Notes under the pieces: generated by a model
Told to the model about the DNA's origin: nothing
The model's input: only the letters and a program-made list of their open reading frames with translations
Database searches by the model: none
Translations under genes and position numbers: made by a program
From: Prevotella sp. tc2-28
GTDB lineage: Bacteria > Bacteroidota > Bacteroidia > Bacteroidales > Bacteroidaceae
DNA length: 64,000 nt
Reading direction: 5' to 3'
NCBI RefSeq assembly: GCF_900107705.1
Contig: NZ_FNRE01000004.1
Span: 124,001-188,000 of the forward strand
Shown: positions 51,033 to 52,777 of the stretch, piece after piece
Layout: each line of letters opens with the position of its first letter
Numbering within the stretch: the stretch's first letter is position 1

Positions 51033-51084
51033 ATAGACATTCTTGGCTATCCAAAGCAGTTATAATAAAAGTTAAATTATGGTC

Positions 51085-51131
51085 TATACTCTGCGGAATC
51101 TTTAAATTTTTGCCACTTTCCGCAGAGTATA
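51085..51131 (+). repeat. Palindromic hairpin, left copy flanking the ATPase-nuclease gene
   Basis: TATACTCTGCGGAA (51085-51098) and TTCCGCAGAGTATA (51118-51131) form a perfect 14-bp stem with a 19-nt loop. The whole hairpin is present again in reverse orientation at 52607-52653. Confidence 0.95.
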
Positions 51132-51144
51132 AGCATATTTTTTG

Positions 51145-51153
51145 TATCTTTGC
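51145..51153 (+). promoter_or_regulatory. Promoter -7 element of the ATPase-nuclease gene
   Basis: TATCTTTGC, 21 bases before the chosen start; the -33 position falls in the right arm of the left hairpin. Confidence 0.6.
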
Positions 51154-51174
51154 AGTCACAAAACGTATCTGAAC

Positions 51175-52596
51175 ATGCTGATAGGTAGAAAAAAGGAACA
51201 AGAGCAGCTTCTCAGCGCAATGCGTGAGGAAGATTCGATGTTTGTGGCTGTGTATGGTCGCAGACGTGTTGGCAAGACATATCTTGTCAGAGAAACATTC
51301 GCCAACAATTTTACTTTCTATCATACGGGATTGGCAAAATCGCCGATGAAAAAGCAACTGGCTGCCTGGAAATTGTCACTTCGTGAGTACGGCATGAAGA
51401 AACCCGCAATGCCAAAGACCTGGCTTGAAGCTTTTGATATGTTGAAAGACATTATCCGGCAATCCGAAGAACCCAAGAAAATCATTTTCATTGATGAAAT
51501 GCCTTGGATGGATACCCAACGCTCAGGGTTCATTCCTGCATTGGAGAATTTCTGGAACGGGTGGGCCTCGGCCAGAAAAGACATTATCCTCATCATCTGT
51601 GGTTCGGCAACCTCTTGGATTATCAACAAAGTAATCAAAGATCATGGCGGGCTACACAATCGGGTAAACACGAAGATTCACTTGCAACCCTTCACCATGA
51701 ATGAATGCGAGAAATACGCCATTCACAGGAAACTGGGCATGAATCGCCGCCAATTGATGGAGTGCTATATGGTGATGGGAGGCATTCCATTCTATTGGTC
51801 GAAACTTGAACGAGGCTTAAGCCTTGCCCAGAACATCGACAACCTTTTTTTCAACCCAGACGGCGAACTTGTCAACGAGTTTAACGAGCTTTATGCCTCA
51901 CTATTCAAGAATCCTGCGCCATACATCAAAGTCGTCAATACCCTTGGAACCAAGCGCATAGGAATGACGCGCGAGGAACTTATCACCGAAGGCCGTCTGT
52001 CGGATAACGGAAAGTTGTCCGAGATACTTGAAGACCTCGAAGCCTGTGGCTTTATCCGCAGATACAAAGCCTTTGGTCAGAGATTGAAAGGCGCGATGTT
52101 CCAGCTTATCGACTCATATACATTATTTTATTATAGGTTCATCAAGCAGAACAGACAGGACGATGAACACTTCTGGTCATCCCAGGCGGGCACCCCCATC
52201 TATTACAACTGGTGCGGTTTGGCCTTTGAGCGCATCTGCCTGCTCCATGTCTCTCAGATCAAGAAAGCCCTTGGCATATATGGAACCATCAGCACCGTCT
52301 GCTCTTGGCGTTCATGCAATAGTGCCGCAGGTCAGAAGGGAGCGCAGATAGACTTGTTGATAGACCGTAGCGACAATGTGATTGACATCTGCGAGATGAA
52401 GTTTACAAAAGAGCCGTATGAGATGGATGCTACTGAGGATGCCAAGATACAAAACCGTCGTTCTCGATTCATAGAAGAATCTGGAACGGACAAAGCCATC
52501 CATCTTGTTCTGGTATCAGCTGCAGGAGTAAAGCGCAACAGCTATTCTGACGAATTCCAGTCAGTAATCACTGCTGAATCATTGTTTGATGCATAA
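51175..52596 (+). CDS. AAA ATPase with DUF234-type PD-(D/E)XK nuclease-like C-terminus
   Basis: 473 residues from ATG 51175; an upstream ATG at 51142 lies across the -7 element. The archaeal-type ATPase domain has Walker A YGRRRVGKTYLV (about 27-38) and Walker B KKIIFIDEMPWMD (about 95-107), with sensor-like IICGSATSW. A winged-helix region follows (TREELITEGRLSDNGKLSEI), then the DUF234 domain with AAGQKGAQIDLLIDRSDNVI and DICEMKFTKEP, giving a D...ExK nuclease motif. Such proteins are common on mobile DNA, and their role is unknown. The gene sits alone between inverted copies of one palindromic hairpin. Confidence 0.88.
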   Translation: MLIGRKKEQEQLLSAMREEDSMFVAVYGRRRVGKTYLVRETFANNFTFYHTGLAKSPMKKQLAAWKLSLREYGMKKPAMPKTWLEAFDMLKDIIRQSEEPKKIIFIDEMPWMDTQRSGFIPALENFWNGWASARKDIILIICGSATSWIINKVIKDHGGLHNRVNTKIHLQPFTMNECEKYAIHRKLGMNRRQLMECYMVMGGIPFYWSKLERGLSLAQNIDNLFFNPDGELVNEFNELYASLFKNPAPYIKVVNTLGTKRIGMTREELITEGRLSDNGKLSEILEDLEACGFIRRYKAFGQRLKGAMFQLIDSYTLFYYRFIKQNRQDDEHFWSSQAGTPIYYNWCGLAFERICLLHVSQIKKALGIYGTISTVCSWRSCNSAAGQKGAQIDLLIDRSDNVIDICEMKFTKEPYEMDATEDAKIQNRRSRFIEESGTDKAIHLVLVSAAGVKRNSYSDEFQSVITAESLFDA

Positions 52597-52606
52597 AAAA
52601 ATAGCC

Positions 52607-52653
52607 TATACTCTGCGGAAAGTGCCAAAATTTGATAGATTCCGCAGAGTATA
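52607..52653 (-). repeat. Palindromic hairpin, right copy flanking the ATPase-nuclease gene
   Basis: The same 14-bp arms as at 51085-51131 (52607-52620 and 52640-52653), with loop AGTGCCAAAATTTGATAGA matching the reverse complement of the left loop at most positions. Inner flanks of both copies share an A-rich AAAAAATA stretch. Confidence 0.95.
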
Positions 52654-52777
52654 GGCGTGTTTTTTCGAGTATGTGAAGAGATTGAGTCCACAAAACACTT
52701 TCTTATGAGGCATAAGGCTGATACATCTTATGTATCACACCTATTGCCATCATCAGAAATTGAGAAGTTTGTTTGTT

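Follow-up and report, generated by a model that had tools for sequence, protein, structure and literature searches.

The ATPase-nuclease gene described here, found between two inverted hairpins in a 64,000-nucleotide stretch of Prevotella sp. tc2-28 (the window), is in our reading a moving one-gene cassette of defence type that carries an operator-like palindrome, an interpretation to which we give a probability of about 0.55 and which we prefer to those that make the palindromes transposon ends, a pair of terminators or a landing site. The strongest new result is one of register: the spacing between the palindrome and the -7 promoter box downstream of it tends to take values whole helical turns apart. 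In addition, comparisons between genomes show that the family travels as a unit between target direct repeats of 25-120 bp, and from the family we infer the mobility of the window's own copy. PDC-S27, the family concerned, is a frequent candidate defence label, and the gene occurs in gut and rumen bacteria. One-gene insertions with long target repeats offer a tractable case of defence-gene spread in which no obvious transposase or integrase takes part, and the palindrome resembles a switch for the gene more than it does the terminus of a mobile element.

The protein and the hairpin pair of the window

The gene occupies positions 51175-52596 on the forward strand (ATG at 51175, stop codon ending at 52596) and encodes a protein of 473 aa. 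The profile of PDC-S27, a candidate defence family of PADLOC, matches this protein over its full length (residues 2-471 of 473, 670.7 bits, E 2.9e-202) and is also matched by 75/75 homologues of set A2; by virtue of this family label the protein is a candidate for a role in phage defence. According to the accessible text of two publications, PDC-S27 stands among candidate systems, with 3503 archaeal and 4562 bacterial detections and with validation pending for most such candidates (PMC12988326), and with 2865 hits in one rumen survey (PMC13356809). That text is silent on palindromes and on one-gene insertion, both of which the window's family shows. Nothing on palindromes, control or spread of the family was found in the literature searched, a body of work that left most subscription papers and preprints outside its scope.

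Residues 1-325 (51175-52149, forward strand) form the predicted STAND/AAA ATPase part. In an AlphaFold2 model (pLDDT 93) their fold is like that of the archaeal ATPases PAB2304 (2qen; Z 20.0, 298 aligned, rmsd 3.2) and SSO1545 (2fna_A; Z 19.3, 294 aligned, rmsd 3.1), which we take to be of the STAND type. The Pfam family ATPase_2 is matched by 40/40 homologues, and the Walker A/B residues G28, G33, K34, D107 and E108 are invariant. The match leaves out the C-terminal nuclease domain of the window's protein. This domain, residues 330-473 (52162-52593, forward strand), was folded alone with a pLDDT of 94 and gave modest matches to EndoMS (5gke_A; Z 8.4, 110 aligned, rmsd 3.3), 2vld_A (Z 8.2) and McrBC (6hz4_N; Z 7.2), the best Foldseek E value being an equally modest 1.6e-3. 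Residues Q391, D393, D400, E407 and K409 are invariant in 40 and in 75 sequences, and a D...ExK motif is present on the core fold. As modelled, the protein joins a STAND/AAA-type ATPase to a PD-(D/E)XK nuclease fold. Pfam DUF234 matches 4/40 homologues and not the window's protein itself, for which searches of PHROGs and NCBIfam also returned no family. With a dN/dS of 0.03-0.09 in 12 of 13 close homologue pairs and of 0.27 in the remaining, very close pair, the gene is, on these ratios, under purifying selection.

The two inverted hairpins that the first-pass annotation had seen around the gene are real. The upstream palindrome (51085-51131, forward strand) has perfect 14-bp arms and a 19-nt loop; the downstream one (52604-52656, reverse strand; 52607-52653 as first annotated) has a stem of 17 bp and no -7 box beside it. 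The right copy had been described as the reverse complement of the left, loop and inner flank included. An inverted match of 60 nt does relate positions 51084-51143 (forward strand), which reach up to the -7 box, to positions 52595-52654 (reverse strand), which begin at the stop codon, but the two are 87% complementary, and loop and inner flank are similar rather than identical. Three further points of the annotation held: the promoter starts just inside the left boundary, the -7 box TATCTTTG (51145-51152, forward strand) lying directly inside the left repeat; the setting is that of an ICE, with a weak Toprim match upstream and DUF4134, DUF4133 and TraG matches downstream; and no target duplication was found where it was looked for around the window's copy. 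The box is called a promoter on the strength of its motif TANNTTTG, presumably the Bacteroidales-type -7 box.

When up to 2 mismatches are allowed, the arm TATACTCTGCGGAA occurs at 4 places in the 64 kb, exactly the arms of the two hairpins (mean 0.33 in 100 shuffles, of which 0 reached 4), and no further exact copy exists in the 3.37-Mb genome; TATAATCTGCGTAA, which appeared in the genome search, belongs to an unrelated short repeat. As RNA, both hairpin regions give more stable folds than shuffled sequence, by 5.7 to 8.8 sd, on both strands. The search for known RNA families returned 2 sub-threshold mir-5583 matches alone, which were dismissed as chance. To the right of the right hairpin lies a 26-mer (52667-52692) that was found in 1/100 genomes, its own, and also in G090 (L128), upstream of the start of an ORF that reads by eye like an AAA_14/DUF4143 ATPase; its rarity rules it out as a common end.

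Upstream palindromes of the homologues and promoter register

Homologues were surveyed in two sets. In a scan of the genus, 88/150 genomes had at least one match with an E value of 0.001 or lower, weak relatives counted, with up to 11 matches per genome; 94 genes, a part of the matches listed, make up the genus set. Named genomes hold at least 582 relatives, of which the best 80 were kept, mostly from Bacteroidales MAGs (relatives filed under other phyla may be binning errors), and viral contigs hold 11; the second set comprises 89 genes from these collections. Loci with less than 150 nt of flank were left out (2/94 and 2/89), which leaves 92 and 87. Five genes are common to both sets, and L026, in which another genome carries the same insertion as the window, was counted in the census of flank copies and omitted from the phasing and co-evolution counts.

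The expectation that a hairpin pair would flank homologues elsewhere was borne out on one side of the gene. An upstream hairpin lies within 260 nt in 143/179 loci, but few loci (23) have copies on both sides. With second copies scoring below 40 counted as absent, a downstream copy was called in 24/179 loci (16 direct, 8 inverted), or 15 direct and 8 inverted without L088, a direct case in which a terminator-like target makes up the repeat. Other direct repeats lie near the gene in 20/179 loci, four of which (L187, L188, L225 and L235) are suspected to be decayed hairpin copies; repeats fitting neither class are present in 3/179, and 132/179 have none. The window's genome contains three homologues, each with its own, different hairpin pair, the other two being 51% and 42% identical. 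Upstream hairpins above the 99th percentile of the coding control belong to 73/92 and 66/87 homologues, compared with 17/159 ordinary, 1/26 Fic and 11/32 DUF4143 genes.

Of the homologues, 88/94 and 61/89 have a TANNTTTG box in the 80 nt that precede the start, against 37/1000 random 80-mers. From the centre of the palindrome to this box the distance is 37 nt (37.0) in the window and 36-39 nt in 29/84 non-redundant loci that have palindrome and box. In the range of 42-74 nt, 33/35 loci fall within 2.5 nt of 37.5 + 10.5k (binomial p 4e-9), and 24/25 remain in phase when the proteins are thinned at 55% identity (p 2.5e-7), phase and +-2.5-nt window having been picked after the main peak was seen. 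Outside the tested ranges are 20/84 loci: 10 are nearer than 36 nt, 7 of them out of phase at 31-32 nt, and the remaining 10 are scattered beyond 74 nt. The distances also scatter in the small samples of DUF4143 (10), Fic (2) and ordinary (11) genes that have both features. A sigma-70 promoter scan was uninformative (4 found against 3.5 expected).

Such a register fits a palindrome that serves as a protein-binding operator of the promoter. Because the palindrome stays with the gene in close relatives, we infer that the operator is probably bound by the gene's own product; an element end would not need a helical register with the promoter. The hairpin is more conserved than the 40 nt preceding it at high protein identity (likeness 0.84 against 0.67 at 90-100%, and 0.65 against 0.53 at 80-90%); below about 80% identity, the palindromes scarcely exceed the preceding sequence in likeness. 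In loci with two hairpin copies, the repeated stretch stops short of the -7 box in 19/22, in keeping with the operator. Weighing against the operator are the stem changes in 96 close-homologue pairs, of which more are broken (198) than compensated (78; a further 51 are G-T), as well as the hairpins upstream of DUF4143 genes, the recurrence of the L108 palindrome behind such genes, the gene-free hairpins described below and the T-rich tracts that follow the upstream hairpin in 61/134 cases.

These T-rich tracts, together with the long stable stems, the A tract before and T tract after the window's right hairpin, and the gene-free copies behind a tRNA gene and a by-eye argS, could also mean that the hairpins are bidirectional terminators or insulators, shielding the gene from read-through and ending its transcript. 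That function strikes us as distinctly unlikely, since it leaves the helical register with the -7 box without a reason; the mean arm G+C is 0.38, and the rarity of such upstream hairpins at ordinary genes also speaks against it. At neither hairpin did a terminator scan make a call, but the 8-nt loop limit of the scan excludes both.

Across the family, the travelling cassette comprises roughly 100-200 nt of upstream sequence, the promoter and the gene, usually with the palindrome, and is inserted between direct repeats of its target, which by eye are gene 3' ends or terminator-like hairpins. On the operator view, binding of the palindrome by the gene's own product or by a gene-specific regulator would keep the nuclease gene nearly silent, and titration or activation of the protein, for instance by a phage, would switch it. 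Paralogues with different palindromes need not cross-regulate one another within a cell, and the second copy past the stop codon may be an optional extra binding site, as a rule without a -7 box. Other accessory genes of the genus are apparently inserted in a similar way.

Movement of the unit and its target repeats

Close homologues with 83-98% DNA identity share the unit and have unrelated flanks in 12/14 pairs. In those pairs the shared sequence extends for 104-181 nt before the start and for no more than 148 nt past the stop; one pair is cut on its right side by a contig end, and flank decay could add to the difference in the more diverged ones. The exceptions are L108/L110, a larger duplication, and L083/L086, which have an upstream gene in common. 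By eye, the cassettes of L083, L086 and L025 lie directly behind the end of a tyrosine recombinase gene.

Queries made of the two joined flanks returned junction-spanning matches, that is, empty sites, for 4/7 loci, three of them with both flanks. Compared with its empty site in G042, L108 is inserted at a 51-bp repeat (flanks 98.2% and 97.4%); L024 has a 25-bp repeat relative to G221 (97.6% and 95.0%), and L088 a repeat of about 55 bp relative to G077 (87% and 91%). The site of L048 in G007 is a partial one, with a repeat of about 120 bp within which the contig begins. Empty sites for L054, L098 and L087 were absent among the matches listed. Allelic sites without the unit are thus available for relatives and not for the window's copy, for which flank searches of 398 genomes recovered the same insertion in G120 and no empty site. 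G258, considered as one, is uninformative (about 70% alike, with flanks on different contigs).

A clear upstream hairpin is present in L108 and L024 only of these four loci, L088 having none that is clear and L048 a weak one. The inserts of L108 and L024 both begin well ahead of the upstream palindrome; that of L108 ends at the stop codon, without a right hairpin, and that of L024 includes both hairpins. The first-pass annotation had proposed a compact mobile module with palindromic ends, and of this the mobility stands, given the empty sites and the unrelated contexts, but the palindromes are poor candidates for ends, as the boundary of L108 and L024 lies outside the upstream palindrome and copies on both sides are rare.

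Flank repeats were counted at a score of 40 or more. Direct ones, hairpin copies included (and these are many), flank 20/92 and 28/87 ATPase-nuclease loci, against 5/2070 and 3/1848 for swapped flanks; the corresponding counts are 4/159 for ordinary genes (three on one stretch of a few kb), 4/26 for Fic and 3/32 for DUF4143 loci. Inverted repeats flank 10/92 and 12/87 ATPase-nuclease loci, against 8/2070 and 2/1848 for swapped flanks, and 2/159 ordinary, 0/26 Fic and 2/32 DUF4143 genes. Without the five duplicate genes and L026, the totals are 47/173 direct and 21/173 inverted. The Fic loci L317, L318, L302 and L313 and the DUF4143 loci L280 and L296 are flanked by direct repeats of about 45-200 bp. 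Fic and DUF4143 repeats are alike in kind, and that of L317 is by eye a duplicated tRNA 3' end. Long target repeats seem to be general to accessory single genes here.

The excess of direct repeats over swapped flanks and the empty sites with target repeats would both be expected of a self-mobilising element, whose ATPase-nuclease recognises the palindromes as its ends and drives its own insertion with long staggered target duplications. The presence of up to 11 matches per genome, the entry of both hairpins with L024 and a weak match to the profile of TnsC, a transposition ATPase (E 9.5e-4), point the same way. Self-mobilisation is nevertheless unproven, because such repeats also flank Fic and DUF4143 genes in the genus and are therefore not special to this protein. 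L108 went in without a right hairpin and L088 without any clear palindrome, no common terminal sequence was seen by eye among the inserts, whose boundaries vary, and the promoter phasing is left unexplained. We regard this reading as rather doubtful.

REP-RAYT and IS200/IS605 elements consist of one gene beside imperfect hairpins, and the single gene next to hairpins in the window resembles them in this respect. It differs in that its protein has no Pfam match to such a transposase, its hairpin is not dispersed over the genome, and its relatives have target repeats, which are not known for REP-RAYT or IS200/IS605 elements.

Gene-free hairpins and gene arrays

The window's hairpin, in the version with its 11 inner stem base pairs kept, was sought without regard to the gene in 388 genomes. 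It is present in 5/388: G000 and G120, with the gene, and G074, G265 and G296, without it. Wide occurrence without the gene, for example as ordinary terminators, would have refuted the first-pass proposal; the outcome is divided, with 3 of 5 carriers gene-free, only those 5 carriers among the 388 genomes, and homologues that usually have one palindrome rather than two. In G074 and G265 the solo hairpin occupies a common site that follows a tRNA gene. In G265 this gene is called as tRNA-His; the site in G074 has the matching 3' part of the tRNA only, and no tRNA is called there. These two genomes agree fully over a block of about 85 nt that contains the hairpin and differ in the flanks, and the core of the block is that of the window's right hairpin; the hairpin core is common to three genomes. 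The gene-free copies (L331, L333 and L332) lie beside the shared tRNA site or behind a gene that is by eye argS. No homologue of the window's protein was found within the 3-11 kb around the three solo hairpins; G074 has ATPase-nuclease homologues elsewhere in its genome. The L108 palindrome also follows DUF4143 ATPase genes, nearly identical in G042 and more changed in G045, and stands beside an AbiEii gene. Gene-free hairpins and DUF4143-linked palindromes are at odds with a palindrome that belongs strictly to a single gene.

A further reading makes the palindrome a landing site: a piece made of promoter and gene would enter next to a palindrome already in place and copy it, and the solo hairpins in 3 genomes would be empty sites. 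Second hairpin copies begin 0-30 nt past the stop in all loci but L210, and other target repeats often begin close past it too (0-148 nt); the repeated hairpin stretch stops short of the -7 box in 19/22 two-copy loci (two by a looser box); and the palindrome of L108 adjoins the DUF4143 and AbiEii genes just mentioned. We nonetheless consider such a landing site very unlikely. Palindromes accompany the gene into unrelated contexts and lie within the insert in L108 and L024, most loci have one palindrome only, and the empty G221 allele of L024, a locus with paired hairpins, has no palindrome at all (one case).

Two regions, G045:C1:2275009-2309351 (L334-L336) and G042:C9:73408-84659 (L337), are array-like, with a repeat of ~50 bp in one orientation. 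Between the repeats lie a 200-aa gene without Pfam match and DUF4143 ATPases, to which an ATPase-nuclease gene is added in G045 and an AbiEii gene with the gene before it in G042. The repeat of L108 is one of these ~50-bp array repeats, and G045 has an extra PDC-S27 cassette where G042 is empty. Integrons are arrays of single-gene cassettes with one recombination site, and single genes split by a ~50-bp repeat in G045 and G042 recall them; in contrast to one recombination site, the repeats that flank ATPase-nuclease genes vary between loci. It is tempting, if rather improbable, to see in this a traffic of integrase-free cassettes in Bacteroidales, in which unrelated single defence-type genes would enter gene 3' ends and build arrays split by copies of the landing site, the fast-changing palindrome of the ATPase-nuclease gene being both an operator and a mark left behind or copied at the far end. 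DUF4143 domain matches number 28 to 35 per genome in G045, G042 and G072, which marks a strongly amplified ATPase family.
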